A program made the position numbers and the translations under genes. From contig CAISWQ010000040.1 of assembly GCA_903889245.1 (NCBI GenBank), positions 1 to 64,000 on the forward strand: 64,000 bases of DNA, given 5' to 3'. The notes beneath the pieces are model-generated. The model saw nothing but the letters and a program-made list of their open reading frames with translations, ran no database searches and was not told the DNA's origin. Shown here piece after piece: positions 24,423 through 45,264 of this stretch (within the stretch, counting starts at the first letter, position 1; every line of letters starts with the position of its first letter). The DNA comes from an uncultured Lentisphaerota bacterium (lineage in GTDB: Bacteria > Verrucomicrobiota > Kiritimatiellia > CAIQIC01).

Positions 24423-24600
24423 CGGGTGGTTTCCTTCTTGGGTTTGTCGCGCGCGGCGGACTGCTCGGGATGCGGACGCGGCTGCGCGTTCACGGTGTCG
24501 AACGCCTGCTTCAGGCGCGCGACCACGTCGGGATGTTGCGCGGCCACGTCGTGCTGCTCGGCGGGATCGGCGAGTAGATCGAAGAGCTGCATGGGCGCGG
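24416..24600. repeat. direct repeat, downstream copy (sulfatase C-terminal tail)
   Basis: About 185 bp nearly identical to 26304-26488; I count about six mismatches after the shared start codon. It encodes the last 58 or so residues of a sulfatase and ends at the ATGA junction with the next sulfatase gene. Confidence 0.9.
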
Positions 24601-24700
24601 GCGGTGCCCCTGCCGTGCGCGTGTCGGTTGCTATCATAATCAACCCGAGGCCTAACGCAGCGAGCGCACGTGTTGTATGCGGGAGAAGCATCTTTTTCAT
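24419..24700 (-). pseudogene. truncated sulfatase remnant: signal peptide joined to C-terminal tail
   Basis: A 93-aa frame. Residues 1-31 look like a signal peptide (MKKMLLPHTTRALAALGLGL). From about residue 35 on it is almost identical to the last 58 residues of the first sulfatase in this operon (MQLFDLLADPAEQHDV to KPKKET). The whole catalytic part, including the CxPxR motif and metal ligands, is missing. It keeps an intact start, frame and the ATGA overlap with the next gene, so it may still be translated, but it cannot be a sulfatase. Most simply it is a duplicated sulfatase that suffered a large internal deletion. Confidence 0.75.
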
Positions 24701-24708
24701 AGGTTGGC

Positions 24709-26310
24709 TTATTTCAGCAGCGGCGGCGTACTGCGCTTGGCGGCGCGCTGCTCGCGATAGAGTTGCCCCATGCGGTGGACGCGTTCGGCCTGCGCCGCAT
24801 CGGCGATCAAGTTTTTCTTTTCGGCCAGATCCTCGGCCAAGTTATAAAGTGCAGCCGGTTGGTCCACGATGTTGAGCGTGAGCTTCCAGTCGCCTTCGCG
24901 CAGCGCGTGCGGCATATGGTCGCTGCTGGATTTGAGCGCCCGCCCCTTGGCCTTCGCGCCTTGGGCTTTCGTCGCCTTGCCCACGGCGGCGTAGGCGGCG
25001 TTAAAGCTCTGCCCTTGCGCGGGCACAGCCTCGGCAAAGGCATCGCGGTTCGGGCTGCCCTGCACCAGCAAGGTCTGGCGCACAGGCTGGCGGTCATCCC
25101 GCTGACCGAGCAACACGGGCAGCAGGCTGATGCTGTCGCGGGCCTGATCGGCGCCGGGCTTGGCTCCGGCCACCTCGGCGAAGGTCGCGACGGCATCGTG
25201 CGCGCCGATGAGCTGCTGGCGCACACTGCCGGGCGCAATCTTTGAACCGGCGGCGGTGCCATCACCCCAGCGCACGAGGAACGGCACGCGATGTCCGCCC
25301 TCATAGATGAACGACTTGCAGCCGCGCAGTCCGCCCACGGCGTCGTGACCGCACTCGCGCTCGAAGGGCAGTCCGCCGTTGTCGCTGGTGAAAACCAGCA
25401 GCGTGTTGGCCAGCAACCCGCGCTGTTCCAACGCCGCGGTCAGCTTGCCGAGCAACACATCGGTTTCCACCACCATGTCGGTGTGCTCGGTCATCTGCGA
25501 GGCGCCCTTCACCGGGGTGCCCAGCACGTGCTCCGGCGGAGTGTAGGGGCTGTGCGAGCCATCGGTGCAGAAGTGCAGGTAGAACGGTTGGTCCTTGCCG
25601 GCGGCCTTGTTCTTCGCCAGATGCTCATCCAGAAAGGCGATGGCCTTGGTGAGGATGAGCTCGCCCACCTTGCTGCTGTCGAAATCCGGCAGACCCGGCC
25701 CGGCGCTCGGAATCATGCCGCCGCCTTGCGGCCCCTTCTTGAGCTCCGTCACCTTCGTCGCATCGCCCGCGACGCGGTTGTTCTCCAGGAACAGGAAGGG
25801 CGGCAAGGCATGGCCGCCGGACAAAATATAGGAATAGTCAAAACCCCACTGGAGCGGACCGCTCGTCATCGGCTTGCTCCAATCCACTTCCTTGCCATCC
25901 GCGGTGTGCTCGAAGACGCCGCCGACGTTGATCTTGCCGAACATCGCAGTGCGATAGCCGGCCGCCTGCAGCAGGTGCCCAATGGTTTTCTGGCCAGGCA
26001 GGAAATAGGTCCCCCGGTCAAAATCCCAGACTCCATTCGCCGCCAGACCGCGCCAGGGATAGTTGCCCGTGAGCATCGCGTAGCGTGTGGGCGAGCACAG
26101 CGCCGCCGGCGTGTGCGCATCGGTGAAGCGCATGCCCGCCTGCGCGAGCTTCTCGATGTTGGGCGCAGGAATTTTGCTCGCCGGGTTGTAGCACCGGAAA
26201 TCGCCCCAGCCGATGTCATCGGTGAGAATCAGTACGATGTTCGGCGGCTGCGCGACCAGCGCGGTAAAGCTGCCGGCCAGCCATGCCAACAAGACAAGAC
26301 AGAATTTCAT
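24709..26310 (-). CDS. secreted Cys-type sulfatase (second of cluster)
   Basis: A 533-aa exported family-S1 sulfatase: signal peptide, NIVLILTDDIGWGD metal site, formylglycine motif C72-S-P-T-R in ALCSPTRYAMLTGNYPW, later FTSDNGGLPFER and YEGGHRVPFLVRW. The ATG at 26308-26310 overlaps the stop of the first sulfatase (ATGA) and starts a proper signal peptide; the longer upstream frame is only an overlap with the neighbouring gene. Its N-terminus resembles that of the third sulfatase (LLAWL near residues 7-11), pointing to an old tandem duplication. Confidence 0.93.
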   Translation of the reverse strand: MKFCLVLLAWLAGSFTALVAQPPNIVLILTDDIGWGDFRCYNPASKIPAPNIEKLAQAGMRFTDAHTPAALCSPTRYAMLTGNYPWRGLAANGVWDFDRGTYFLPGQKTIGHLLQAAGYRTAMFGKINVGGVFEHTADGKEVDWSKPMTSGPLQWGFDYSYILSGGHALPPFLFLENNRVAGDATKVTELKKGPQGGGMIPSAGPGLPDFDSSKVGELILTKAIAFLDEHLAKNKAAGKDQPFYLHFCTDGSHSPYTPPEHVLGTPVKGASQMTEHTDMVVETDVLLGKLTAALEQRGLLANTLLVFTSDNGGLPFERECGHDAVGGLRGCKSFIYEGGHRVPFLVRWGDGTAAGSKIAPGSVRQQLIGAHDAVATFAEVAGAKPGADQARDSISLLPVLLGQRDDRQPVRQTLLVQGSPNRDAFAEAVPAQGQSFNAAYAAVGKATKAQGAKAKGRALKSSSDHMPHALREGDWKLTLNIVDQPAALYNLAEDLAEKKNLIADAAQAERVHRMGQLYREQRAAKRSTPPLLK

Positions 26311-26488
26311 CGGGCGGTTTCCTTCTTGGGTTTGTCGCGCGCGGCGGATTGTTCGGGATGCGGGCGCGGCTGCGCGTTCACGGCGTCGAACGCCTGCTTC
26401 AGGCGCGCGACCACGTCGGGATGTTGCGCGGCCACGTCGTGCTGCTCGGCGGGATCGGCGAGTAGATCGAAGAGCTGCATAGGCGCGG
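26304..26488. repeat. direct repeat, upstream copy (sulfatase C-terminal tail)
   Basis: Near-identical partner of 24416-24600. It encodes the C-terminal tail of the first sulfatase, again ending in the ATGA junction with the next sulfatase start. Confidence 0.9.
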
Positions 26489-27743
26489 GCGCGTCGCCGG
26501 AGCATACGCCGGGATGCTCGCTGGGCTGATACTGCTCGTGGGGCGCGAGGATCGTCACGCCATCCGGTCCGCGCGGATCCACCCACGGCTGGCCGCTCTT
26601 GCCGAGCTTGAGGAACTGGTCGGCCGGCGCGAGCACGTGCAGCTTCCAGCGCGCGTCGCGCGCGGTGGCGAGCTGCGGCCCGCGTACGCCGAAGATGACG
26701 GCGTGCGGGCTGGGCGCATCCGAACAGAACAGTGGCATGATGTCGCAGCCATCGAGCGCGAGTCCCGCGGGCGGCGCGACCTGCGCGGCCTGCAGCGCGG
26801 TGGAGAACAGGTCCATCATCACCGCCGGCTGGCTGCTGACGTGCCCGGCGGGGATCTTCCCCGGCCAACGCGCGAGGCACGGCACGCGGTAGCCGCCCTC
26901 GTAGGTGCTGCCCTTCATGCCACGCAGGCCGCCGCTGCTGCCGCCGAACCACGGCCCGTTGTCGCTGGTGAAGAGCACGAGCGTCTGCTCCTCGAGGCCG
27001 AGCGCCTTCAACTTCGCGAGCAATTCGCCGACACTCCAGTCCAGCTCGCTCATCGCGTCGCCATAAAGCCCCGCGCCGCTGTGCTTGTAGCGTTCCTCGG
27101 CGACGGCGAGCGGCTTGTGGACGAGCATCTGCGCGAAGTAGAGGAAGAACGGCCGCGCCCGGTTCCGCTCCACGAAGTCCAGCGCGCGCGCCGTGTAGCG
27201 CTGCGTCAAGGTCGCCTGCACCACCGGATACTCCACGCGCTGCGTGCCTTCGAGCACCTGTACGGGCCGCATGTCGTTTGAATAGGGGATGCCGAGATAT
27301 TCATCGAACCCCCGGCGCGTCGGCAGCCACTCCGGCTTGGCGTGGCCCAGATGCCACTTGCCGACCATGCCCGTCGCGTAGCCCGCCTGCTTGAGCAGTT
27401 GCGGCAGCGTGACCTCGTCCTCCGGCAGATGCAGCCCATCGGCCGCCGGCCCGGCGTCGGGCGTCGGGTTCTGCGTCATGCCGCAGCGGAACGGATAGCG
27501 CCCGGTCATCAGCGTCGCGCGCGTCGGTGCGCAGAACGCCGCGGCGCAGTTGAAGTGCGTCAGCCGCGCGCCCTCGGCCGCGAGCCGGTCGAGGTTGGGC
27601 GTCTTGAACTTCGCGTGGCCATAGCAGCCGAGGTCACCGTAGCCGAGGTCGTCGGCCAGGATCAGCACGATGTTCGGCCGCGGCGCGGCGGGCGCGGTCC
27701 ATGTGGCGAGCAGCAGGGCGCTGGCAATGATTATTTTTTTCAT
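26307..27743 (-). CDS. secreted Cys-type sulfatase (first of cluster)
   Basis: A 478-aa exported family-S1 sulfatase heading a five-gene operon. Signal peptide MKKIIIASALLLATWTAPAA, metal site NIVLILADDLGYGDLGCYG, formylglycine motif C71-A-P-T-R in AFCAPTRATLMTGRYPFR, then KWHLGHAKPEW and FTSDNGPWFGG. The last 58 residues are duplicated in the remnant gene downstream. The ATG at 27741-27743 starts the signal peptide; the longer frame runs back through the palindrome cluster. It precedes the second sulfatase with a 4-base overlap. Confidence 0.93.
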   Translation of the reverse strand: MKKIIIASALLLATWTAPAAPRPNIVLILADDLGYGDLGCYGHAKFKTPNLDRLAAEGARLTHFNCAAAFCAPTRATLMTGRYPFRCGMTQNPTPDAGPAADGLHLPEDEVTLPQLLKQAGYATGMVGKWHLGHAKPEWLPTRRGFDEYLGIPYSNDMRPVQVLEGTQRVEYPVVQATLTQRYTARALDFVERNRARPFFLYFAQMLVHKPLAVAEERYKHSGAGLYGDAMSELDWSVGELLAKLKALGLEEQTLVLFTSDNGPWFGGSSGGLRGMKGSTYEGGYRVPCLARWPGKIPAGHVSSQPAVMMDLFSTALQAAQVAPPAGLALDGCDIMPLFCSDAPSPHAVIFGVRGPQLATARDARWKLHVLAPADQFLKLGKSGQPWVDPRGPDGVTILAPHEQYQPSEHPGVCSGDAPAPMQLFDLLADPAEQHDVAAQHPDVVARLKQAFDAVNAQPRPHPEQSAARDKPKKETAR

Positions 27744-27789
27744 GGTGCAATCATCCTTTTTTGGCAACGCGGAGGTGTGGCGGTGACAC

Positions 27790-27863
27790 GTTTCCAAGGC
27801 TTGGAAAAGCGCGGTGTTGTTTTTTCCAAGCCTTGGAAAAACACGCGGAAAATTTTCCAGCCG
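27790..27863. repeat. palindrome cluster 6 (2 copies plus a half copy)
   Basis: Copies centred at about 27799 and 27831 (32 bp apart). A TTTTCCA half-site would centre at about 27862, 31 bp further on. Located between the GH4 gene stop and the first sulfatase start. Confidence 0.85.
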
Positions 27864-27897
27864 CCCACGCACGGTCATCTCCGGCCTCGCATCCACC

Positions 27898-29316
27898 TCA
27901 TGCCTGCGCGAGTTTGCCGAAGCGGTTGGCGATGGCGAGCGCCGGGTCGAGCGGCACCTCGGCGCGCTTGACGTTGGCGGGCACACGGATTGCCGGGACG
28001 GCGCGCAGTTGCCGGCCGGCGAACTGCGGCAGATAGGCGCGTTCCGCCTCCAGCATCTCCGCGGTCATCCGCCGGATTTCATCGAGCGTCAGCACCGCCG
28101 CGGTCAGCGGGTCGAGCGCGATCGCCTGCATCACGAGCTCGGGGTCGCCGGAGAAGCTGGCCTCGACGGCCAGCCCCTGCACGAGCACGTTGGTCAGGTT
28201 CAGCGCGGCGCACTGCGGCGGCAGGTTGCCGATGACCGTGGGGTGCAGGCCGAGGCGGTCCACATAGACCGGCACCTCGACGCAGCAGCCGTCAGGCAGA
28301 TTCGTGATGTAGCCATCGTTGCGGACGTTGCCGTTGAGCCGGAAGACGACACCGGTCTCCTTGGCCTCGATGATGTGCGAGCAGTATTCCGCGCTGCGCG
28401 GGCCGAGCTTGGTGGACTCGATGGAGAGCGGGTCCGTCTTCGCGAACTTCTCGGCGAGCATCGCGCAGTATTTATAGTACGCGCCCGTCTCGCCGCCGAA
28501 CGAGGGCTCGTCGCAGTAGAGGTCGAGCGCCTTTTTGTTTTTGCGGAAGTACGGCAGGTACTCGGAGAGATGCCCGGTGCTCTCGGTCATGAAATAGCCG
28601 AAGTGCCGCAGGACCTCGCCGCGCACCTTCTCGTTCACGTAGAAGCCGGGCTGCTCGAAATTCTTTTTCAGCAGCGGGTAGAGGTCCCGGCCCCGGTGCT
28701 CCAGCTTGAGGAACCACGCCATGTGGTTGATGCCGGCGGCGACGAAATCAATCTCGGCCTTCGGCGCGCCCGCGTAGCTGGCGATCAAATCCATCGTCGT
28801 CTGCACGCCGTGGCAGAGGCCGACGAACTGCAGGCCCGGCACGCGGCCGAGCGCCCAGCAGCACATCGCCATCGGGTTGGCGTAGTTGAACACGATCGCG
28901 TTCGGACACAGCTCCTGCACGTCGCGCGCGATCTCCAGCAACTTCGGGATGTGGCGCAGCGCGCGGAAGACGCCGCCGGGGCCCAGCGTGTCGGCGATGC
29001 ACTGGTCCACGCCGTACTTGAGCGGAATCTCGTAGTCCTGCTTGAACTCCGCGACGCCGCCGGCTTGGATCATGATGACCACATAGTCCGCGCCCTTGAG
29101 CGCCTCGCGGCGGTCGGTGGTCGCGGTAACGGTCGCCTTGACCTTGTTGTCGCGGATCATGCGCCCGACGAAGTCGCGCATCTTGTCAAGCCGCGTGTGC
29201 GTCAGCGCCATCAGGCGATACTCGCTGCCCTCCAGCGCTTTGGTCGCGAGGAAATCCGACATCAGGGTTTTGCAGAACACCAGGCTGCCGGCGCCGAGCA
29301 TTGCTATCTTGGCCAT
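27898..29316 (-). CDS. GH4-family alpha-glycosidase (NAD+/metal dependent)
   Basis: A 472-aa cytoplasmic enzyme of glycoside hydrolase family 4. It has the N-terminal Rossmann start MAKIAMLGAGSLVF, NYANPMAM near residue 144, the metal and active-site segment C168-H-G-V-Q, and a following INHMAWF. GH4 enzymes such as alpha-galactosidase MelA use NAD+ and Mn2+ in an oxidation-elimination mechanism. The CHGVQ form is closest to alpha-galactosidase/alpha-galacturonidase members, but the substrate is not certain. It has its own promoter and an AAGGAG ribosome-binding site. It probably processes sugars released by the exported enzymes of this island. Confidence 0.92.
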   Translation of the reverse strand: MAKIAMLGAGSLVFCKTLMSDFLATKALEGSEYRLMALTHTRLDKMRDFVGRMIRDNKVKATVTATTDRREALKGADYVVIMIQAGGVAEFKQDYEIPLKYGVDQCIADTLGPGGVFRALRHIPKLLEIARDVQELCPNAIVFNYANPMAMCCWALGRVPGLQFVGLCHGVQTTMDLIASYAGAPKAEIDFVAAGINHMAWFLKLEHRGRDLYPLLKKNFEQPGFYVNEKVRGEVLRHFGYFMTESTGHLSEYLPYFRKNKKALDLYCDEPSFGGETGAYYKYCAMLAEKFAKTDPLSIESTKLGPRSAEYCSHIIEAKETGVVFRLNGNVRNDGYITNLPDGCCVEVPVYVDRLGLHPTVIGNLPPQCAALNLTNVLVQGLAVEASFSGDPELVMQAIALDPLTAAVLTLDEIRRMTAEMLEAERAYLPQFAGRQLRAVPAIRVPANVKRAEVPLDPALAIANRFGKLAQA

Positions 29317-29377: not shown

Positions 29378-32300
29378 TCAATTCGCCTTCCGGGGCGCGG
29401 GTTGGGTCAGGTGGATGAAGAGGCCTTTCTTGTTCGCGACGATGACGTCGGGGCGCGCGTCGCCGTTGAGGTCGCTGGCGGCGACCTGCGTGCCGACGCC
29501 GCTATCATCATCAATCAGGTGCGGCACGAACGTCGCGCCGCCCTGGCCGTCGCGGCGCGTCTCCAGCCAGAAGACGAGGGCGGGCGCGTCGGGCTCTTTG
29601 TCGCCGGTCGGGCCGTGCGCCCAGTAGCGTTTGCCGGTGAGGACATCCTTCACGCCGTCGCCGTTCATGTCCACCAGTTCCAGCGCGTGTAGCTGGCTGA
29701 CGCGGAAGGCGGACGAGTTCAAATCCGGCGCGGGCGGAAGAATGATGTATTGCCGCCAGGCAGGTGCGCCAGCGCCGCTGCGAATTTGCTTCCACCAGAC
29801 CAAACCGTAGTGGTGACAGTGCCACGCGGTGATGAGGTCGGCGCGGCCATCGCCATCCACATCGCCGACGAGCATCTGCGCGCCGGCCGCCGCGAACTGC
29901 TGCGGATGAAACACCCACGGCTGGCCCGGCGTTGCCTGCGCGGGTTGTTCCCACCAGCCGAGCGCCTCAACCACGTCGGTGCGCCCGTCGCCATTGATGT
30001 CGCCGAAGCCGAGGCCGTGCGTGAACCGGAAATAACGCTTGTCCTGTTTCGAGATGGCGTGAAACACCCACGGCTCTTCCGGTTTCGCTGGCTCCGCCGT
30101 CGCGTAGCCGAGGTAGCCATCGTTGCAGAAAATGAGTTCGGGCCGGCCATCGCCGTTGAGGTCGCCCCACACGGGCGACTCGTTGCCGACGAAGGTATAG
30201 GCCAGGTGCTGTTTCCACGGCCCGGTTTTGCCCGCGGAGTTTTCGTACCAGAAGGCCTCCTTGCCGGGCATGGGAACGCACAGGATATCGGTCCAGCCGT
30301 CGTCGTTGAAATCACCGGTGTAGGTCAGGAAGTTGTCGGAGTAACCCTTCGGGTCGAAGGTTTTCGCCGGCCGGTAGGCGTGCCGCTGCTGGAAGTCCGG
30401 CCCCGCAAACCAGAACGGGCCCGCGACGACATCCAACTTTCCATCGCGGTTGAAGTCGCCAGAGTAGGCGCCCTCGGCGTAGAACTGGTCGGAGAGTTTC
30501 AGCCGCTTGAACGCGTCGCGCGGAGGGAGAACAGCAGGTTTTGGCGGCGGCCCGGCCGGCGCGGCATGTGCGGCGGGCGCACCGGCGCGCACGATCCGGG
30601 CGCACGCGAACCAGCCGCCGCCGCCCTGCGTGATCTTGAGCATGAGGACGTTCTTGCCCTGCTTGAGCTTGATCGGCGCCGCGTCCTGATCGGGCAGGCC
30701 GTGACGATCCACGTTGTTGCTGTGGACGACGACGCCGTTCAGCCACGCCTTCACGCCATCGTCGCTGCCAAGCAGCAGCGTCGCGTCGCCATCCTGCGGC
30801 GCGATGATCTCCGTCTTCAGGTAGGCCGCGCAATTCACCTGGTCCGGGAACATCGCCAGGAGGTTCACCCGGTCGGCCTTCGGCACGGGTTTCCACTCCA
30901 CTTTTTCGCCGGGTTTTTCCGGCCCGAACGCGATGTCGAAAAGCTTGAGCGCGCCGGTCACGCCGGGTTGGCTGTAGGGACCGCACACGAGCCAGTCGCG
31001 GATGAAGGGCCCGCCCATCTTGGGGGTCGCGCCGCCTGCTTTCGGTTGCACGCCGGCGAGATGCGCGCGAATCTGGCGCGCGGCGACCTCGGCCTCGGCC
31101 TTGACTGCGGTATCGGCACGATATTTTTCCGCCAGTTCCAGCGCCGCGGGTAGCGCCACCTTGCCGAGTTCGGCCAGCCCCAGCCGCTTCTCGTCGGGTC
31201 GTTGCGCGGCGGCGAGTCCCTCGGCGCACAGTTTGAGACGCTCCGGGGCCGGCGTTTTTCCAGCCTGCGCCACGAGCCGCCAGTAGCCGCGCAGCGCGAG
31301 CACACGCTGCGTTTCGCCGGCTGCCTCGCGCGCCAGCGCCAGCAAGGCCGGCAGCGCCTCGACATCCGCAAAGTCCGCCAGCGCGCGCACCGCCGCATCG
31401 CGCAGGTCCGCGTTGGAACCCCTAGCGCCGGCCTGCAAGGCGGCGAGCGCCTGCGGGCCGCCGATCCGGCCCGCCGTCCGCAGCAGCGTGCAACGCGTAG
31501 GCAGGTCCGCATCCGGCCGAGCCTCCAGAGCCAGCGCCACCAACGGCTCGCGCTGCACCGAGCGCGCCGCCAGCGCAACGAAGGCGGACTCCGCGGCATC
31601 GCGAGCGGCATCGGTTTTCGCGCGTAGGATCAGCTCGAACAGCGCCTCGGCCTGCGCCCCGGTTGCAAGCTCCTGTAGCGCCCGGATCGCAGCCAGGCTC
31701 ACCCTGGCATCGCCGGTCTGCGCCAGTTTCAGCAGCGCCGGCGCAGTTGCTTTTTCGCCGCGCTTCACGAGCACTTGCATCACCTCGGCCTGGATTTTCG
31801 ATGGCGACAGTTCGAGCTGTGCGACCAGCGCGCCGCCGACCTCGCCGCGGTGCAGGCGCCGCAAGACCAGCCGGGCCGCCTCGCGCTCGGCGTCCGTGCC
31901 CGCCAGGGCCACGACCAGCATCGGGACGTGCGTGGCATCGCCAAGCGCGCCCAGCGCCTTGATCGCCGCGACGCGCACCGCCGCGTCGGGACTGCGCGCC
32001 AGCGCAGCCACCGCCGGGGCGGCGGCTGCGTCGCCACGCTGGCCCAGCGCCTCCAGCAGCGCGACCTGCGCGAGCGGAGCGATGGCGGGCAGAACCTCCG
32101 CGATTTTTTGCGCCGCGCCGCGGCCCGGAAGTTCACGCACGAGCGGGACCGCGGCCACCTGCAACACGGGATCTTTCCCCTTGAGCGCCTCACAAACGAG
32201 CGCGACGCCGTCACCATCCGCCGCCAGCGCCAGCGTACGCAAGGCGGCGGCCCGCACTTCGTCGGGCTCCGTCGGCGAAAAAAGCTCCTTGCCGATGGTC

Positions 32301-32842
32301 ACCGCCTGTCCACGTTCGCGCGTTGCGCAGCCGAGCAGCGCCTCGGCGAGCGCACGCTGTAGCGGTGCCGGCGCGCTCCGCCTTGCTTGCATCAGCGCAG
32401 CGAGCGCGTCCTGGCCCCCGATGCGGCCCAGCGCCCGTGCGGATGCCGCCGCCACCAGCGCGTCGCGGTCCGCGAGCAACTTGATCAAGTCCGGCACAGC
32501 GCGCGCGTCGCGCCGCTCGCCGAGCGCGTGGGCGAGCGCGGCCTTGGCTTTGCCGCCGGTCGTGAACAGCGCCGCGCGTAACGCAGCGCCTGCCTCGGCG
32601 CACGGCATCGTTTCCAGCGCGTCGAGCGCCCCTTGCCAGAGATCATCATCGGCCAGCAACGCGGCCAGCGGCGGCACCGCCTGGGCGGTACCGCTTTGCT
32701 TCAGCCGTTGCAACGCGCTGCACTTGGCCGCCGTGTCGGCGGCGGCGTTTTGCAGGACGGCCAGCGCTTCTTGTTCGGGGGCGGCGTCTGCGGCCAGCGT
32801 CCAGGTGGCGGTCACGAGGAGCAGCAGGAAGATGTTTTTCAT
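29378..32842 (-). CDS. exported HEAT-repeat / FG-GAP beta-propeller protein
   Basis: A 1154-aa protein: signal peptide (about 1-20), then about 580 residues of HEAT-like helical repeats (AVPPLAALLADDDLWQGALDAL, AVPDLIKLLADRDALVAAASARALG and many more). A lectin-like or PA14-like sandwich follows (about 620-770, FIRDWLVCGPYSQPGV, LLLGSDDGVKAWLNGVVVH), then seven FG-GAP/VCBS units from about residue 790, each with a calcium-type DxNxDGxxD loop (DFNRDGKLD, DFNDDGWTD, DLNGDGRPE, DINGDGRTD, DVDGDGRAD, DMNGDGVKD, DLNGDARPD). Seven units could close one propeller. Such proteins probably act in extracellular binding; no enzyme motif is seen. It follows the Gfo/Idh/MocA gene by 12 bases. Confidence 0.85.
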   Translation of the reverse strand: MKNIFLLLLVTATWTLAADAAPEQEALAVLQNAAADTAAKCSALQRLKQSGTAQAVPPLAALLADDDLWQGALDALETMPCAEAGAALRAALFTTGGKAKAALAHALGERRDARAVPDLIKLLADRDALVAAASARALGRIGGQDALAALMQARRSAPAPLQRALAEALLGCATRERGQAVTIGKELFSPTEPDEVRAAALRTLALAADGDGVALVCEALKGKDPVLQVAAVPLVRELPGRGAAQKIAEVLPAIAPLAQVALLEALGQRGDAAAAPAVAALARSPDAAVRVAAIKALGALGDATHVPMLVVALAGTDAEREAARLVLRRLHRGEVGGALVAQLELSPSKIQAEVMQVLVKRGEKATAPALLKLAQTGDARVSLAAIRALQELATGAQAEALFELILRAKTDAARDAAESAFVALAARSVQREPLVALALEARPDADLPTRCTLLRTAGRIGGPQALAALQAGARGSNADLRDAAVRALADFADVEALPALLALAREAAGETQRVLALRGYWRLVAQAGKTPAPERLKLCAEGLAAAQRPDEKRLGLAELGKVALPAALELAEKYRADTAVKAEAEVAARQIRAHLAGVQPKAGGATPKMGGPFIRDWLVCGPYSQPGVTGALKLFDIAFGPEKPGEKVEWKPVPKADRVNLLAMFPDQVNCAAYLKTEIIAPQDGDATLLLGSDDGVKAWLNGVVVHSNNVDRHGLPDQDAAPIKLKQGKNVLMLKITQGGGGWFACARIVRAGAPAAHAAPAGPPPKPAVLPPRDAFKRLKLSDQFYAEGAYSGDFNRDGKLDVVAGPFWFAGPDFQQRHAYRPAKTFDPKGYSDNFLTYTGDFNDDGWTDILCVPMPGKEAFWYENSAGKTGPWKQHLAYTFVGNESPVWGDLNGDGRPELIFCNDGYLGYATAEPAKPEEPWVFHAISKQDKRYFRFTHGLGFGDINGDGRTDVVEALGWWEQPAQATPGQPWVFHPQQFAAAGAQMLVGDVDGDGRADLITAWHCHHYGLVWWKQIRSGAGAPAWRQYIILPPAPDLNSSAFRVSQLHALELVDMNGDGVKDVLTGKRYWAHGPTGDKEPDAPALVFWLETRRDGQGGATFVPHLIDDDSGVGTQVAASDLNGDARPDVIVANKKGLFIHLTQPAPRKAN

Positions 32843-32854
32843 CAGGTGTTCTCC

Positions 32855-34171
32855 TTAGACCTGCCATGGCGGGCGGAAGGTGGTGGCGAGCAGGCGGTTC
32901 GCCTCGTCATCGCCGGGGAAGCATTCAGCAACGGGGTCCCACTTCAGCGTGCGCTTGAGCACGAGCGCGAGGCCGCCGAGGATAACCGTGCTGGCGGAGC
33001 GATGCGCCGTCTCGACGTCGCAGATCGGTCGCTTGCGGGTGCGCACGCATTCCAGAAAATTCCCCGCGTGGCTCGTGCTGTGATAGACCGCCGCCGCCCC
33101 CGGCCCCAGCGGCGCCGTGAGCAGCTCCGGATGCGAGGCTGTGATGTTGTCGCGATCCACCGCGACCCAGCCATTCGTGCCGATAAAGCGCGCGCCGCCG
33201 GAACCGCCGGGGCCACCCTCCGGCGGCAGGCAGGCATGCACCACCACGCCGTTCGCATAGCGATACTGCAGTACGTCCTTCTCGAAAAAGATCTCGACCG
33301 GCCCGCTGCGGTCGGCATCGAGCACCCACTGGATGAAGTCGTAGTGATGCGGCGCCCAGTTGATATCGCCCTCGCCCATGAACATGTGGGCATTGACCAC
33401 GCCAGCGAAGGGTTGCCACGGCGCAGGGCCGAGATAGAGGTCCCAATCCAGCCCCTCGGGCGCCGGCTTGGGTGGGCCAAAGCGCTTCCACGCGAATGTG
33501 CCGCCGGGCTTGAAGGCGTAGACCTCGCGCACCTTGCCAATGGCGCCGCTACGGACGATCTCGCAGGCATGCCGAAACTTGCCCTCATATTCCGAGCGCT
33601 GTTGCGTGCCGGCTTGGAACACGCGCCCATGACGCAGCACCGCCGCACGCATCGCCTGGCTCTCGCGGATTGTGATCGCCGTCGGTTTCTCGCAATACAC
33701 GTCCTTGCCCGCCTGCGCCGCCAACACCGACATCACGCCGTGCCAGTGGATCGGCGTCGAGATCACCACCGCGTCAATATCCTTCCGCGCCAGCAGGTCG
33801 CGGAAATCGTTGTAGGCCGAGCACGCGGTGTACTTGCCAGCGCCGAACCGCGCGGCATAAATTTCGTCGAGCCGTTGCCGGGCCGCCTCGCGCCGGTCCT
33901 TGAACACATCGCACACCGCCACCACCTGCACGTCGTCGCGTCCCGCGTAGCCGCCGGGCACATAGGTCCACCTGCCGCCGAAGAGATGGCCGCCGCTCTG
34001 CCCGTTCGGGCTGACGCCGATGAAGCCCACGTTGATGCGCTCGCTCGGCGGGATGAAGCCGCCGCGCCCAAGCGCCGACGCGGGCACGATCAGCGGCGCG
34101 GCCAGCGCGCCCGCGAGCGTGCCGAGGAACTGGCGGCGCGTGCGACCGGTGGTTGAGGCTGGGATTATCAT
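32855..34171 (-). CDS. Tat-exported Gfo/Idh/MocA oxidoreductase
   Basis: A 438-aa protein with a twin-arginine signal (TRRQFLGTLAGALAAP). The Rossmann domain begins NVGFIGVSPNGQSGG and includes CDVFKDRR, and the EKP motif (VYCEKPTAI) is present. A C-terminal alpha/beta domain with WDLYLGPAPWQPF and HHYDFIQWVLDADRS follows. Gfo/Idh/MocA proteins oxidise or reduce sugars with a tightly bound NAD(P). Tat export fits the export of a folded, cofactor-loaded enzyme. The substrate is unknown. It is in one transcript with the HEAT/FG-GAP gene. Confidence 0.88.
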   Translation of the reverse strand: MIIPASTTGRTRRQFLGTLAGALAAPLIVPASALGRGGFIPPSERINVGFIGVSPNGQSGGHLFGGRWTYVPGGYAGRDDVQVVAVCDVFKDRREAARQRLDEIYAARFGAGKYTACSAYNDFRDLLARKDIDAVVISTPIHWHGVMSVLAAQAGKDVYCEKPTAITIRESQAMRAAVLRHGRVFQAGTQQRSEYEGKFRHACEIVRSGAIGKVREVYAFKPGGTFAWKRFGPPKPAPEGLDWDLYLGPAPWQPFAGVVNAHMFMGEGDINWAPHHYDFIQWVLDADRSGPVEIFFEKDVLQYRYANGVVVHACLPPEGGPGGSGGARFIGTNGWVAVDRDNITASHPELLTAPLGPGAAAVYHSTSHAGNFLECVRTRKRPICDVETAHRSASTVILGGLALVLKRTLKWDPVAECFPGDDEANRLLATTFRPPWQV

Positions 34172-34370: not shown

Positions 34371-37300
34371 TCATGGAACTACTTGCCCAGCCGCGTCAGG
34401 GTTGAGTGTGGCGAGATCGCGGCGGGGTTGGGCCCACGCGCGCCGCACGGCGGCGGTGACCAGATCCAGCGCCGCGCGATAATCGGGGTCCTGTGCATCG
34501 GCATAGACCACGCCCTCGCATTTCGCGTCGCCGCCCGCGCACTTCGCCAGCGGGGCTTTCAGGAACAGGCTGCGCGGCGCGTTCTGGAGGTTGATCCAGT
34601 CGAGCCGTGTGACCTCGTCGGCGCGATGACAGGACGCGCAGCGGCGCGCGTGGATGGCCTTGAGGTTCGCGCGCAGGTCGGCGTCGGCGGCGAGATCGTA
34701 GGCGGGCTGCGGCGCGCGTTTGTTCACGAAGGCACCGTGATAGGGCGCGTTGGCGTCAATCCACATCGTCAGCCGCAACTTGTCCCCGGTGTCCAGTTTC
34801 ACGCGCTGCGTGTGCGGTTCCCTGCCCAGCGTCGCGAGCAGCTTGCTCTTGTGCGCACCGTAGGCCAGCGGCGGCGTGATGGTGGCGTCCTGCGCGCGCG
34901 CGGGCGAGCACGCCACCAGGCCGCGCTCCATGATGGTCGCATAGGCGCGGTTATAGCCGTAGCCGGGCACCGCGAGATCGAAGCTGGTCAGTCCGCCACC
35001 GAGGTCCAGGCCGCCCGCCGGCTTCAGGCCGGTGTGGCAGCGCGCGCAATGGCGGTCGAGCACCGGTTGCACGTCGCGCAGGAAGTTCACCGGCCGGTCG
35101 CCCCACGGCGGCGGCAGCAGCGGCGTGGGCGGATGCTGGGCGGCGAGCGGTGGCGGGGCGGCGCGCGGCACGACGTTGCGCGATTCGTGGCAGCCGGCGC
35201 AGGCGCGCTGCTCGCCGGGCTGGAAGCTGATGAAGCTGCGCATCCGGCGCAGTTCCATCCGCTGCTCGTCGAGCAACTGGAAATAGACCGCCGTGTCCGG
35301 CGGCACGCGGAAGTGCGCGCTGCCGTCGCGCTCGACCGGCACGTCGCCGAGGATGCGCACCGGCGTCCAGTTGTCGGCGATGCGTTTTTCGCCAGAGGGC
35401 TTCTGGCAATTGTGATCCTCCACATAGCGCTGGCCGCCGTGGTGGTTGTCGTAGGGCCAGCCGATGGGCTCGGCGATGCGCAGGTAGCGGATGCGGCCCG
35501 CAAGTTCCGCGCTGCCGAAGCTGGCGTCGCTGACGATGCAGGTCGCGTAGTTTTTCGCCGGGTCCGTGGCGTCCGGCAGTTCCGGCGGGCGCGGGCGGGC
35601 GCGCAGCGGCACCGGAATGAAGCACGCGATCGCCGGGTCGCGATGGATGAGTTCCTTGTTGCCGAACACGTCCACGAGATAGAGGCCGTGGCCGGTCGCC
35701 TCGGTCTGCTTGTCCGAAAACGAATAGGAAACGAGGAAATGTTTTTCCGAGAGCGGCCACGGTGTGGAATAGAGGCCGCCGTGGTCGGCGACACCGCCCT
35801 CGGGCACGGGTACGCCATCCATGCCACCCTCGGGCGGCTTGACGCCGGGCGTGACGATGCCCAGGCCGCGCGGCTCGTTCATGCCGGGCGCGGCATCCAC
35901 GATCACGAGCGGCCCGACCGCGAGCGTGTGATGGCCGGTGGCGATGGCGGCGAGCTTGCGGCTGCGCGGGATCGAGCGCACATCCTCCAGCGCCCACGGG
36001 TTGGCGAAATGCTGCTTGAAGATCGCATCCGCGCCGGTGCCGTCGGGCCGGATGAGCCAGAGCGACTGGATGAACGCGAAGCTGCGCTCGTGGTATTCCC
36101 AGCGCGTGTAGCCGATGCTGCCATCGTCGAGCGTGTGCGGCAGGTAGTCGCCGTCCTTGTTCACGCTCATGCGCCGGATGCCGCTGCCGTCCGGGCGCAT
36201 GACGTAGAGGTTGCAGCTCGTCTCGTCCTTGTCATATTCGTTGCACTGGAGCGATGTGCCGCAGCGTTCGGAGACGAAGACGATGTCGCCGTTGGGCGCG
36301 TAGGTCGGGTCGAGGTCGCTCCACTCGCCGCGCGTGAGCTGGCGCAGCCGCCGGCCGTCCACACCGATCTCAAAGAGATGGATCGGCTCCACGCTGCGGC
36401 GCAGGTCGAAGTTGGTGCGGCGGTCGAGCCAGCCCGCCGGTGGCGCGTTGCTTTTCGCCTGCGCGTAGCCGAACACGATGCGGCTGCCGTCCCACCACAG
36501 GTCCATGCCGTGAACGTGGCCGGGGCCGAGCGCACCGTTGAGGATGTACCGCACACTCTGGCCTTCGCCCGCCGGTGAAAACGGATTCGACAGCACGCAG
36601 AGGTCGCCGCCGGGCCGCGAGACCCACGGCATGTGGTTGAGGCACACATCGGGATAGGTCTCCTGCGTGAAACGTTTCACGAACAGCAACCGGTCGAAAT
36701 TCAGCAGCGGATTGGCGAACACGAGCCGGCGGATGATCCAGCGCGTGTCGAGGTAAAGCTGGCGGCGTTCCGCCGGCGTTGTGGCGGTCCGTTTCTCGAT
36801 GGCGTCCAGCTCGCGCAGGTGCGCCGCGACATCCACGCCTGACTTGGCCAGCTCGGCGGCCAGTTTCCGCGCGCGGGCGAGGCACGCGGCGGTCGGGAAG
36901 TCGTCAGCACGTTTGATCTTCGCCGTGGACCACTGGCTTAGGCTCGATTGGTTCGCCGGCCGGCGCAACGCGAGGTTGCGCGCGTCTGGCCCCGGCCCGT
37001 AAATCTCCACCTCGTCGAGATGGAAGAAGAGCGGCTTTGCGCTCGGCACTTGCAGCCGGACGAACCGCGCGCTAACTTCGCCATCTTTGAAAACGACCTC
37101 CAGCGGCTTCGCGCCGGTGACGCCGCCGAAATGCCGGCCTTTGTTATCGTGGCGCAGCTTCCAGCTTTTCCCATCATCGGACGTGAGGATGCGGAGATGG
37201 TCGGCGTTGTGGAGGCCGGGCGCGTAATCGAGCCGGTTGAACACCATGATGCGCGCGATGGGCGTGACGCCACCGAGGTCCACCTGCCACCAGGGATGCG

Positions 37301-37523
37301 CCTGATGGCCGGTGTGAAACGCATACTTGCCGTCCTTGACGCCATCCACCGCGCCCGCTGCATCGCTCTGCGTGGTGAGCGGCGTCGCCAGCGACTTCAG
37401 CCAGTCCTCCTCGACCTGCTGGCGCACCGCACTGGCCGACACGTCCTCCTCCCGCGGCGCGCCCTCCACAGGCGCGACCATCAGCGCTGCCAGCGCCACC
37501 GGCAAGACACACGCCAGTCTCAT
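34371..37523 (-). CDS. HzsA-related exported triheme cytochrome-like protein with discoidin domain
   Basis: A 1050-aa exported protein. After a signal peptide (about 1-21), residues about 50-180 are an F5/8 discoidin-type domain (AFHTGHQAHPWWQVDLGGV). The middle part (about 300-650) resembles the propeller of hydrazine synthase alpha subunits (GDIVFVSERCGTSLQCNEYD, DGSIGYTRWEYHERS). The C-terminal third carries three CxxCH haem-c sites: C775-A-G-C-H, C826-A-R-C-H and C962-A-S-C-H. This does not imply anammox: related proteins are widespread in PVC bacteria and of unknown function. The ATG at 37521-37523 overlaps the GH172 stop by 4 bases. Coupling to a glycosidase and the sugar-binding-type domain suggest electron transfer linked to polysaccharide attack, which is inference. 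Confidence 0.82.
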   Translation of the reverse strand: MRLACVLPVALAALMVAPVEGAPREEDVSASAVRQQVEEDWLKSLATPLTTQSDAAGAVDGVKDGKYAFHTGHQAHPWWQVDLGGVTPIARIMVFNRLDYAPGLHNADHLRILTSDDGKSWKLRHDNKGRHFGGVTGAKPLEVVFKDGEVSARFVRLQVPSAKPLFFHLDEVEIYGPGPDARNLALRRPANQSSLSQWSTAKIKRADDFPTAACLARARKLAAELAKSGVDVAAHLRELDAIEKRTATTPAERRQLYLDTRWIIRRLVFANPLLNFDRLLFVKRFTQETYPDVCLNHMPWVSRPGGDLCVLSNPFSPAGEGQSVRYILNGALGPGHVHGMDLWWDGSRIVFGYAQAKSNAPPAGWLDRRTNFDLRRSVEPIHLFEIGVDGRRLRQLTRGEWSDLDPTYAPNGDIVFVSERCGTSLQCNEYDKDETSCNLYVMRPDGSGIRRMSVNKDGDYLPHTLDDGSIGYTRWEYHERSFAFIQSLWLIRPDGTGADAIFKQHFANPWALEDVRSIPRSRKLAAIATGHHTLAVGPLVIVDAAPGMNEPRGLGIVTPGVKPPEGGMDGVPVPEGGVADHGGLYSTPWPLSEKHFLVSYSFSDKQTEATGHGLYLVDVFGNKELIHRDPAIACFIPVPLRARPRPPELPDATDPAKNYATCIVSDASFGSAELAGRIRYLRIAEPIGWPYDNHHGGQRYVEDHNCQKPSGEKRIADNWTPVRILGDVPVERDGSAHFRVPPDTAVYFQLLDEQRMELRRMRSFISFQPGEQRACAGCHESRNVVPRAAPPPLAAQHPPTPLLPPPWGDRPVNFLRDVQPVLDRHCARCHTGLKPAGGLDLGGGLTSFDLAVPGYGYNRAYATIMERGLVACSPARAQDATITPPLAYGAHKSKLLATLGREPHTQRVKLDTGDKLRLTMWIDANAPYHGAFVNKRAPQPAYDLAADADLRANLKAIHARRCASCHRADEVTRLDWINLQNAPRSLFLKAPLAKCAGGDAKCEGVVYADAQDPDYRAALDLVTAAVRRAWAQPRRDLATLNPDAAGQVVP

Positions 37524-39061
37524 GGTTTCACTTGTAGGTCGCGCAGGTCCTTGCCTTCCGGCCGCGCATAGACGGGGATGCGGGCTTGCAGGCAGTCGAA
37601 GCCGAGGAGGTAGCCTTTCGAGGCGGCGTTGTGGCCGACGCACTCGAAACGCAGGACGTGGGCGCCGGCCTTCAGCGTGTGGCGACCGAGCGCGTCCTCG
37701 GTGGGCGTCGGTTTCGGGGCGAGCAGGTCGAAGGTGCCGACCGCCTTGCCATCGAGCAGCACGCGGTAGGTGCCGTAATCCCAGGAATGCGTCATCCGCA
37801 AGAGCAGGTCGGCTGTAATCTCCTTCTCCACGCGGAACGGAATCTCCAGCCAACCCTTGTCGTCAGCCGGTCTGAACCACAGTTGCTTGCCGCCGTTGGC
37901 CGGCTTCATCGGCTGCGTCGTCAGCGGATGCACCGAATGCTTCGCCTGCGCCAACGCCTGCCAGCCGATGAGCAGCGTCGTGTCGCGGAACGGCAGGCGG
38001 TCCGGCCCGGCGGGCAACGCCGGCCACGGCTTGTGCGGCTCGGTCTGATACCACAGCGCCACCGACGACATCAGGTCATCGCGCTCGATGAAGCCGTTGA
38101 CCTTGCCATCGGGGAAATGCTGCGAGCCCTTGTGCTCGATCTCGGCGCGCAGCGACTGCTTGAACACGACCGGGTCGGGGATGTGGAAGCGATAGGCCGT
38201 GCCGCGCCCGCCGGTCTTGCCGCCCTCCCAGAGCGGTGTGCCGTAGAACGGCCCGTCCTGCTCGCGGAAGCCCCACGCATCGCAGAAATAATCCTCGGTG
38301 CCCGTGCCGCGCAGGCTGGGCGCCTGCTCGCCATCAATGAAGAAGAAATCATCGCCCTCGCCGTACCAGCCGGGCGAGGTGTGATAGACACTCTGGATCG
38401 TGCCAACGTAGTGGCCGCGTCCCACGATGTCCGCGAGCAGATAGTTGCGGCCCATGACGCACGGATACTCCTGCCGGTACATCGCGTGAAAATATGCAGT
38501 GTCTTCTGGCAGCGACTCGTGCTTCTGCCAGTCAACGTAGTAGTAGAGCGCCCGGCAGGGCTTGTCGCTCTCATTGGTGACCGTGATGCGAGCCGACTGG
38601 CGGAAGGGCATCGGCCAATAACAATTCCGCGCCCGGCCGTTCGACGTGACGCGGATCGGCAGCGACATGAACGCCTGGTCCACGCCGTGCCCGATGCCGA
38701 AGAAATCGCCGATGGGACACTCGACGCTCGGATGTTCCTCGCCGTCCCAGTAGATGCGCAGCGTCAGCAGGCGCGAATAGAACTTCGCCTCGTGCGCGAT
38801 GGTGAACCAGATGTGCGTGATGATGCCCGGCCCTTCCATGTCGGCGACCGTCAGCGTCTCGCCGGCCTTGATCGGCCGCGCGTCGCCGTTGCCGTTACGC
38901 CAGTCGGGCGCGCTCGATGAGGCGCGGCGACTCTCAAAGTTCTTCAGCCGCTCCAATCCGTTCAGCGGTCCCTCCGGCGGCGGCGTGGCGCAACCGGCCA
39001 GCCAGGCGCACAGGGTTACAATGACGGGAACTTTCACGAGATGCACGGGTGTAATCTTCAC
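37520..39061 (-). CDS. GH172 (DUF2961) family lipoprotein
   Basis: A 513-aa lipoprotein with an N-terminal signal and lipobox WLAGC (C24). The body matches DUF2961, now glycoside hydrolase family 172, whose studied members act on alpha-D-fructofuranose or alpha-D-arabinofuranose linkages. Family features include ADMEGPGIITHIWFT, FFGIGHGVDQ, DDFFFIDGEQAPSLRGTGTEDYF and GGRGTAYRFHIPDP. The GTG at 39059-39061 is preferred as start because AGGAG lies 8 bases upstream and the signal peptide then begins immediately; the longer frame would start at TTG. It is followed by the HzsA-related gene with an ATGA overlap. Together with GH127 it points to arabinose-containing substrates. Confidence 0.88.
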   Translation of the reverse strand: MKITPVHLVKVPVIVTLCAWLAGCATPPPEGPLNGLERLKNFESRRASSSAPDWRNGNGDARPIKAGETLTVADMEGPGIITHIWFTIAHEAKFYSRLLTLRIYWDGEEHPSVECPIGDFFGIGHGVDQAFMSLPIRVTSNGRARNCYWPMPFRQSARITVTNESDKPCRALYYYVDWQKHESLPEDTAYFHAMYRQEYPCVMGRNYLLADIVGRGHYVGTIQSVYHTSPGWYGEGDDFFFIDGEQAPSLRGTGTEDYFCDAWGFREQDGPFYGTPLWEGGKTGGRGTAYRFHIPDPVVFKQSLRAEIEHKGSQHFPDGKVNGFIERDDLMSSVALWYQTEPHKPWPALPAGPDRLPFRDTTLLIGWQALAQAKHSVHPLTTQPMKPANGGKQLWFRPADDKGWLEIPFRVEKEITADLLLRMTHSWDYGTYRVLLDGKAVGTFDLLAPKPTPTEDALGRHTLKAGAHVLRFECVGHNAASKGYLLGFDCLQARIPVYARPEGKDLRDLQVKP

Positions 39062-39143: not shown

Positions 39144-40505
39144 CTACAGGCCGGCGATCTGCCAGCCCGCGCGGTAGGTGCGGCGCAGATGGCGCTCGGC
39201 CTGCGGCGCGTTCGGGAAGCGCAGGTTTTTCGCGTCCCAGGCGAGCAGCGTGCCCGGCTCGCGGATCGCCACGGTGCCGAGCAGGATCGCCTCCGCCATC
39301 GGGCCGGTCTGCGCGAAGTGCGACTCGGTCATCTCGCCGCCCAGACACGCCTCGATGAAGTGCCGGTAGTGGTTGCGCGGCCCCGGCTTGGGTTTCGGGC
39401 GGCCGGTGAATTTCTCGCGCGGCAGCAGCAGCGGCCCGCTCTGGTGTGGCACGAGCATCGCGCCCTCGGTGCCGATGATCAGCGCGGCTTCCTCGGGATA
39501 TTTTTCCAGCCCGGTCAGCTTCTGGAATTCCGCAGGCGGATAAAATTCGCCATCAAACCATTCCACGGTCAAGTCCTTGCCGCCGGTGGCCTTGTTGCCT
39601 GGGAAGACCCACGTGATGTGATCGCTCTGTGGCCACGTATCGCCGCGCCGCGCGGGCGCGTCGCGCCACGACTGCTGCACCTCGGCCACTACCGACTTGG
39701 GCGCCTTCAAGTCAAGGCCCTTCCAGACCGCGTCGAAAATGTGGCAGCCGATGTCGCCCGACCAGCCGGTGCCAAAGTCCAGCCACGTGCGCCACTTTGC
39801 AGGATGATAAATTTCCGGCGCATAGGGCCGTTCCGGCGCCGTACCGAGCCAGTGTTCCCAGTTCAGTTCCGGCGGCGGCGGCACGCTCTGCGCGGGCCGC
39901 GGGCCCTCTAACCGATATTTCCCGATGATGTTGGAGCGATTGGAACACAGGAACGCGCGCTGCACATGACCAAGGATGCCCTCCCGCAGCCACTGCACCG
40001 CCATGCGGTCGCCAATGCCGGAGGCGTGCTGCGTGCCCAGTTGCGTCACCACGCCGGCCGCCCGCGCGGCGTCGGTGATGACGCGGCATTCCGCCACGTC
40101 GTGGCACAGCGGCTTCTGGCAATAGACATGCTTCTGCGCGCGCAACGCCGTCAACGTGATGAGCGCGTGCATGTGGTCGGGCACGCTGACATTGACCGAA
40201 TCCACGCGGTCGCCTTCCCTGGCGAACAGCTCGCGCCAGTCGGTGTACTGCCGGACGCCGGGCAGCAACTCCGCCGCCTTCGCCAGATGCTTTTTATCCA
40301 CATCGCAGATAGCGACGATCTGCGCCTTGTCCATGTCCTTGAGTTGTTTCAAGTCCTGCATACCCATGCCGCCGACGCCGATACAGGCGTGCTGGAGCTT
40401 GGCGTTCTTCGCGACCACCCGGCGCGGCATGGTCGCGCAGCCGGTGGCGAGTCCGAGACCGCCCGCGGCCGCGAGCGTCAAAAACTGTCTGCGATTCGTA
40501 TTCAT
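39144..40505 (-). CDS. Tat-exported Gfo/Idh/MocA oxidoreductase
   Basis: A 453-aa protein starting MNTNRRQFLTLAAAGG, a twin-arginine signal followed by a lipobox-like LATGC. The Rossmann core has ACIGVGGMGMQDL and AICDVDKK, the catalytic-lysine region is VYCQKPLCHDV, and the C-terminal domain holds WEHWLGTAPERPY and GWSGDIGCHIFD. NAD(P)-dependent sugar oxidoreductase of unknown substrate, probably outside the cytoplasm. The start is the ATG at 40503-40505, with GGAG upstream. It lies 82 bases before the GH172 gene and directly after a five-copy palindrome array. Confidence 0.88.
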   Translation of the reverse strand: MNTNRRQFLTLAAAGGLGLATGCATMPRRVVAKNAKLQHACIGVGGMGMQDLKQLKDMDKAQIVAICDVDKKHLAKAAELLPGVRQYTDWRELFAREGDRVDSVNVSVPDHMHALITLTALRAQKHVYCQKPLCHDVAECRVITDAARAAGVVTQLGTQHASGIGDRMAVQWLREGILGHVQRAFLCSNRSNIIGKYRLEGPRPAQSVPPPPELNWEHWLGTAPERPYAPEIYHPAKWRTWLDFGTGWSGDIGCHIFDAVWKGLDLKAPKSVVAEVQQSWRDAPARRGDTWPQSDHITWVFPGNKATGGKDLTVEWFDGEFYPPAEFQKLTGLEKYPEEAALIIGTEGAMLVPHQSGPLLLPREKFTGRPKPKPGPRNHYRHFIEACLGGEMTESHFAQTGPMAEAILLGTVAIREPGTLLAWDAKNLRFPNAPQAERHLRRTYRAGWQIAGL

Positions 40506-45120: not shown

Positions 45121-45264
45121 CCGCGCTCTCCTTGTTGTCTGGCTGAGCCCCGACCAGCGCCCCGCCAGCAACCCGACCGAAAGCATGGTCGGTATCGTAG
45201 GCGAGTCCCGGGCGATGGCAAGCCCAATGATGGCGGAATAAAACCGGGCGGCGCGGCGCGCGCG

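Follow-up and report, generated by a model that had tools for sequence, protein, structure and literature searches.

A secreted triheme cytochrome of the HZS_alpha superfamily

The window analysed here is a 64,000-nucleotide stretch of contig CAISWQ010000040.1 from an uncultured Lentisphaerota bacterium, and the subject of this study is a 1050-codon gene within it that overlaps the gene of a GH172 lipoprotein. By its sequence and predicted fold, the product of the larger gene is a secreted triheme member of the HZS_alpha superfamily, to which the alpha subunit of hydrazine synthase (HzsA) belongs. It represents a well conserved, mostly stand-alone clade found in six phyla. The orthologue of one flanking gene, which encodes a lipoprotein of the Gfo/Idh/MocA family exported by the twin-arginine translocation (Tat) pathway, is its only specific recurrent neighbour, and the tight pairing of the cytochrome gene with the GH172 gene is a local accident, peculiar to this genome. 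We tentatively suggest that the protein is an envelope haem oxidoreductase serving sugar oxidation; the role of the clade, although unproven, is probably to oxidise sugars outside the cell.

The predicted product starts with a Sec signal peptide visible in the sequence (MRLACVLPVALAALMVAPVEGA). The initial annotation, made from the letters of the window alone, had described a discoidin domain, an HzsA-like region and CxxCH motifs at C775, C826 and C962, all of which were found (Table 1). Exactly three CxxCH motifs, with variable x residues, occur in 68 of 68 complete orthologues; since completeness was judged partly by these motifs, the count means that no full-length member has fewer and is not an unbiased rate. 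Together with the pattern of GC content at third codon positions (GC3) and the domain matches, the motifs show that the gene and its features are more than chance. An AlphaFold2 model was built from an alignment of 60 orthologues (predicted local distance difference test score 83.7). The structural comparison with hydrazine synthase alpha that had been called for bore out the relationship: 5c2v was the top PDB fold match of the model by a wide margin (E 1.2e-27, template modelling score 0.62 by target), and TolB came next.

Haem binding had been made contingent on the presence of cytochrome c maturation genes, and CcsA and ResB genes were found side by side in this genome. With the CxxCH motifs, the export signal and the maturation genes all present, covalent haem is likely as judged from the sequence. 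In a sample of 57 genomes of the class, CcsA was present in all 12 genomes with HZS_alpha versus 21 of the 45 without it (P 0.0006 by genome and 0.045 by genus, relatives not being independent). Since a search of this genome found no haem-copper oxidase, the electrons probably pass to an acceptor of another kind; such an oxidase was detected in 1 of the 12 class genomes with HZS_alpha.

Within the predicted propeller, C427 is conserved in 60 of 60 orthologues and in 21 of the 22 paralogues encoded by the same genome, and H532 in 60 of 60 and 19 of 22, respectively. Both lie on corresponding loops of two blades, as placed by the predicted strands, and together may make up a site on the same face of the propeller. 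The best solved relatives of the lectin-like domain are fucolectins (FBP32 and lectinolysin). Its residues His70, Arg97 and Asp99 are almost invariant among the orthologues and fit the His plus Arg-x-Asp spacing of FBP32, while the position of the second Arg of FBP32 is occupied by Leu104; we take the FBP32-type His, Arg-x-Asp and second Arg to be glycan-binding residues. The domain is present in 56 of the 60 aligned orthologues and missing in 4, which marks it as an accessory module.

Distribution of the clade and its link to a Gfo/Idh/MocA lipoprotein

Orthologues with 51-83% identity were found in metagenome-assembled genomes of Verrucomicrobiota, Lentisphaerota, Kiritimatiellota, Planctomycetota, Hydrogenedentota and Armatimonadota. 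Scanning a single genome from each species yielded 77 loci with relatives in this identity range; their flanks are partly incomplete, and 42 of the loci extend 2 kb or more to each side. In the tree, the clade is separated with a support of 100 from six same-genome paralogues serving as outgroup, and phylum labels are mixed across it (13 changes versus a minimum of 5). No conserved neighbour of the cytochrome orthologues was found in the 77 loci.

An orthologue of the Gfo/Idh gene at 39144-40505 lies near a cytochrome orthologue in three other loci. In L083, from a genome of another family (G079), the encoded protein is 83% identical and the two genes share an ATGA overlap (L083:13042-13210). 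In L119 (Verrucomicrobiales) it is 60% identical and encoded 0.85 kb downstream of the cytochrome gene, and in L152, from the same genus as the window, it is 72% identical at a distance of 2.4 kb. The best NCBIfam model for the window protein is glycoside 3-dehydrogenase BT_2158 (289 bits versus a cut-off of 750), suggesting a relative of BT_2158-type glycoside 3-dehydrogenases rather than a proven member. The initial annotation had named both flanking Gfo/Idh genes as possible redox partners; the recurrent linkage makes this plausible for the upstream one, whose product may contact the cytochrome. No direct report of a Gfo/Idh enzyme coupled to cytochrome c was found in the literature.

In the mechanism that we infer, including its substrate, the direction of electron flow and the contact between partners, the product of the larger gene, a member of the HZS_alpha superfamily, would act as an exported oxidoreductase with three c-type haems, and its lectin-like domain may hold it on glycans. 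By comparison with HzsA, the propeller loop residues C427 and H531-H532 would face haem 1; oxidation would take place there, and haems 2 and 3 would conduct the electrons away. The cytochrome would work in the envelope while carbohydrate, possibly sulfated, is degraded, and would most likely serve the Tat-exported glycoside-dehydrogenase-like lipoprotein as an electron-transfer or oxidising partner. That lipoprotein, as an exported protein, would have no cytoplasmic NAD pool to take its electrons.

The surroundings in the window are those of carbohydrate catabolism, with three sulfatases, a pectate-lyase-like protein, GH4, PfkB and a TIM barrel. This context is a weak argument, because the genome has 107 sulfatase matches. 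Sulfatases were also considered as general neighbours of the clade and rejected, since they occur at 7 of the 77 loci (window included), which is not above the prediction from 107 matches per genome.

In favour of a role in sugar oxidation alongside the dehydrogenase, a hand count from the gene coordinates placed 8 of the 23 HZS_alpha genes of this genome no more than 5 kb from a Gfo/Idh gene versus 3.4 expected. The excess is weak, and several points weigh against the role. The P value of about 0.013 ignores the clustering of Gfo/Idh genes and is uncorrected for several tests. Gfo/Idh genes of any kind lie near an orthologue in just 10 of the 77 loci (window included), which is unremarkable, as 83 such genes per genome predict about that number. 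Gfo/Idh enzymes, moreover, normally transfer electrons by way of an NAD(P) that stays firmly attached to the enzyme, with no need for a cytochrome.

It is also quite possible, if short of probable, that the protein is a stand-alone haem enzyme or electron-transfer protein without a fixed partner, for instance in peroxide handling or extracellular electron export, and that the Gfo/Idh linkage reflects occasional co-inheritance. The want of a conserved neighbour, the spread of the clade across phyla with no fixed neighbourhood, and the failure to find a haem-copper oxidase in this genome and in all but 1 of the 12 class genomes with HZS_alpha would all suit such a protein, whereas a particular Gfo/Idh orthologue that recurs close by in different lineages and the carbohydrate context of the window and the paralogues speak against it.

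Paralogues and accessory domains

The window gene is one of 23 HZS_alpha genes in this 5.3-Mb genome; 27 were counted in G079 and 0 to 5 in each of the remaining genomes sampled from the class. Fifteen of the 22 paralogues contain two CxxCH motifs, six contain three and one contains a single motif. Accessory domains are swapped among them, including discoidin, laminin-G-like and formylglycine-generating enzyme (FGE)-like domains, and HEAT-like repeats in one sequence. This swapping, the lectin-like domain and the TolB-like propeller are compatible with a non-catalytic sensor or scaffold, in which propeller and lectin would attach to glycan and the haems would serve a structural or sensory purpose. 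Such a function is nevertheless unlikely, as a scaffold should tolerate the loss of haem, whereas the haem motifs are invariant in 68 of 68 orthologues and the propeller His and Cys in 60 of 60.

Fusions of an HzsA-like part with an FGE-sulfatase-like domain (PF03781) were observed in five members (e.g., L160, L161, L162 and L078:2836-6558). They were rejected as true sulfatase-maturing enzymes: their motif region reads RGGSFYDRPQ or similar, without the cysteine pair that marks true formylglycine-generating enzymes.

Relation to hydrazine synthase

HzsA of Kuenenia (PDB 5c2v) and the window protein have in common the propeller, the HZS_alpha middle domain, the C-terminal haem domain and haem motifs 1 and 2, which the family profile aligns with haems alpha-I and alpha-II, at 17% identity in the structural alignment. 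Unlike HzsA, the window protein has neither Tyr591 nor a beta/gamma partner, and it adds a C-terminal third CxxCH and the N-terminal lectin-like domain. The column of Tyr591 (His+4) holds A, E, G, N, S, T, P or Q in the 60 orthologues, and Tyr occurs there in none of them and in none of the 22 paralogues. The score against the NCBIfam equivalog hydrazine_alpha is 53 bits versus a cut-off of 800. As to a beta/gamma partner, none of the window's called genes apart from the cytochrome's own encodes a CxxCH motif, and the single CCP_MauG match of the genome lies on another contig (C16). Although the HZS_alpha domain and the fold are present, Tyr591 and a nearby partner are missing and the score is below the cut-off, and by these sequence features the cytochrome is not a hydrazine synthase.

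C427 and H532 lie in comparable propeller loops and might correspond to the zinc site Cys303-His587 of HzsA, of which chain residue 276 (Cys303) falls outside the alignment with HzsA. The distal His772 of HzsA aligns with residue 904 in the family profile. At residue 904, 35 of the 60 orthologues have His and 22 have Cys, which suggests two types of ligation at haem 2.

An HzsA-like enzyme of nitrogen compounds, acting on nitric oxide, hydroxylamine or ammonium at haem 1 in the manner of hydrazine synthase, would agree with the fold and with the first two haem motifs. We regard it as very unlikely in view of the missing Tyr591, the low equivalog score, the lack of a nearby beta-gamma partner, the lone and distant CCP_MauG match and the richness of the genome in sulfatases.

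HzsA homologues outside anammox bacteria have been grouped into clades I-IV, in which key hydrazine-synthase residues are missing (PMC12758564). These clades were picked for an adjoining beta-gamma homologue and mostly contain two haem motifs or one; few alpha homologues were reported, and Verrucomicrobiota are not named in the main text (PMC12758564). Genes resembling hzs were also described in Phycisphaerae and KSB1, with the proposal of a wider hydrazine-synthase-like enzyme family acting on other substrates (PMC10732223), and both studies doubt that such divergent homologues synthesise hydrazine. The clade studied here belongs to the same superfamily as clades I-IV, agrees with them in lacking key residues such as Tyr591, and differs in its three haem motifs and in having no adjoining beta-gamma partner. 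The earlier statement that HzsA relatives outside anammox bacteria have no established function still holds; the family itself, however, is already in the literature (PMC12758564, PMC10732223), and the window protein is one of many paralogues. Beyond these two reports, alpha relatives are far more numerous, and the propeller residues C427 and H532 are conserved almost family-wide.

Planctomycete-type PSCyt1-3 proteins with carbohydrate-binding modules are further c-type cytochromes of the Planctomycetes-Verrucomicrobia-Chlamydiae group, with unknown function (PMC5615132). They are likewise exported, often lie near sulfatases and in some cases carry F5/8 type C domains, but they contain PSD domains and are described without an HZS_alpha core; no PSCyt domain match (Pfam) was found in the window.

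The GH172 gene and the layout of the locus

The 37520-39061 gene starts at a GTG preceded by AGGAG, and its product has the lipobox LAGC and a Pfam match to DUF2961/GH172 (E 1.3e-81). E235 and E256, 21 residues apart, follow the pattern of the catalytic acid/base and nucleophile in the enzyme on which the family was founded, and W232, D257 and W263 fit alongside; the matched reference residues are Glu270, Glu291, Trp267, Asp292 and Trp298 (PMC8605356). By its domain and Glu pair the product is a GH172 member, with predicted alpha-furanosidase activity. It shares the DUF2961 domain and the catalytic pattern with the GH172 alpha-D-fructofuranosidase / alpha-D-arabinofuranosidase (PDB 7v1v, 8ic8) and differs from it by a C-terminal extension and a lipoprotein signal.

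The initial annotation was correct in its gene positions, in the ATGA overlap and in the GH172 and 1050-residue products, and had gone on to propose an envelope complex tying the glycosidase to the cytochrome. A search of 145 related genomes with the cytochrome protein yielded orthologues with 74-83% identity in G002, G003, G079 and G135. GH172 was searched in the 12 of these 145 genomes with the best cytochrome matches, and an orthologue was found in the congener G002 only (C17:21200-22729), without a lipobox and 18 kb from the cytochrome gene (C17:236-3337) on the same contig and strand. The genes flanking the cytochrome gene stand in a different order in this genome, in G002 and in a second congener, G003. 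No GH172 gene stands beside a cytochrome orthologue at any of the 77 loci or in G003, G079 and G135, a GH172-domain protein is encoded about 8 kb away at 2 of the 77 loci, and neither the adjacency nor the ATGA overlap occurs in any other genome examined. GH172 was thus rejected as a fixed partner of the cytochrome and may instead act in the same catabolic neighbourhood. Because other loci have no adjacent GH172, the overlap is a feature of this genome and a conserved complex is unsupported; one envelope complex coupling polysaccharide attack to electron transfer is most improbable, even though both products are exported, the genes overlap on one strand here and G002 retains both on one contig and strand, given the gap, the missing lipobox and the rearranged gene order.

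Table 1. Features of the cytochrome gene and of the surrounding locus (positions in the window)
Feature	Position	Strand	Remarks
HzsA-like triheme c-type cytochrome gene	34371..37523	-	ATG start, 1050 aa
Discoidin / F-type-lectin-like domain, residues 53-161	37041..37367	-	F5/8 type C, Pfam E 6e-13
TolB-like beta-propeller, residues ~275-640	35604..36701	-	Fold prediction, alignment
HZS_alpha middle domain, residues 676-780	35184..35498	-	Pfam PF18582, E 7.5e-22
Haem motif 1, C775-H779 (CAGCH)	35187..35201	-	Counterpart of HzsA haem alpha-I motif
Haem motif 2, C826-H830 (CARCH)	35034..35048	-	Counterpart of HzsA haem alpha-II motif
Haem motif 3, C962-H966 (CASCH)	34626..34640	-	Past end of HzsA-chain alignment; extra compared with HzsA
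GH172 (DUF2961) lipoprotein gene	37520..39061	-	GTG start, 513 aa
ATGA overlap, GH172 stop (TGA) / cytochrome start (ATG)	37520..37523	-	
Tat-exported Gfo/Idh/MocA lipoprotein gene	39144..40505	-	
Second Tat-exported Gfo/Idh/MocA oxidoreductase gene	32855..34171	-	
HEAT plus FG-GAP repeat protein gene	29378..32842	-	
GH4 alpha-galactosidase-like gene (NAD-dependent glycosidase)	27898..29316	-	
Three sulfatase genes, span 22932..27986	22932-24422, 24709-26952, 26307-27986	-	
PfkB sugar kinase gene	40669-41751	-	
Xylose-isomerase-like TIM barrel gene	41758-42807	-	

Elsewhere in the window, a metallo-beta-lactamase (MBL)-fold hydrolase (43846-45186) shows a weak likeness, below cut-off, to ComEC and to Avs1a/6A-MBL anti-phage models.

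Relatives in Bacteroidota and implications for the family

A search of plasmid proteins revealed HzsA-like relatives in Parabacteroides distasonis, Phocaeicola and Aureibacter, annotated, where at all, as SUMF1/EgtB/PvdO proteins. In the Parabacteroides operon (L183; NZ_OY725748.1 70000-112000), the gene order is an IclR regulator, a propeller protein, two unknown genes, an HzsA-FGE fusion and, adjoining it, CcsA, followed by an unknown gene, DhaK, DhaL, an LsrF-type aldolase, WD40, an MFS transporter and GH130. The propeller protein has two C-terminal CxxCH motifs and resembles a beta-gamma fusion. In Aureibacter (L184; NZ_AP025309.1) the DhaK-DhaL-LsrF-cytochrome-HzsA core is kept. Four paralogues of the genome studied here are about 40% identical to the Bacteroidota HzsA-FGE fusion. 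These operons suggest covalent haem and a sugar-catabolic role in the wider family, and are no evidence on the window cytochrome itself. Since they occur in culturable strains, they make the function of the wider family testable.

In its broadest form, the sugar-oxidation proposal would make the clade a widespread, horizontally mobile class of haem enzyme in the envelope, one that either accepts electrons from glycoside dehydrogenases of the exported Gfo/Idh/MocA type or acts on sugars as the oxidant, and would have hydrazine synthase arise from this carbohydrate-oxidising stock; we offer this as a speculation and hold it to be rather doubtful. For the question of how hydrazine synthase originated, the clade, its linked dehydrogenase and the Bacteroidota operon provide testable leads on the ancestral chemistry. 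The same leads bear on the routes by which exported Gfo/Idh/MocA enzymes might get rid of their electrons.

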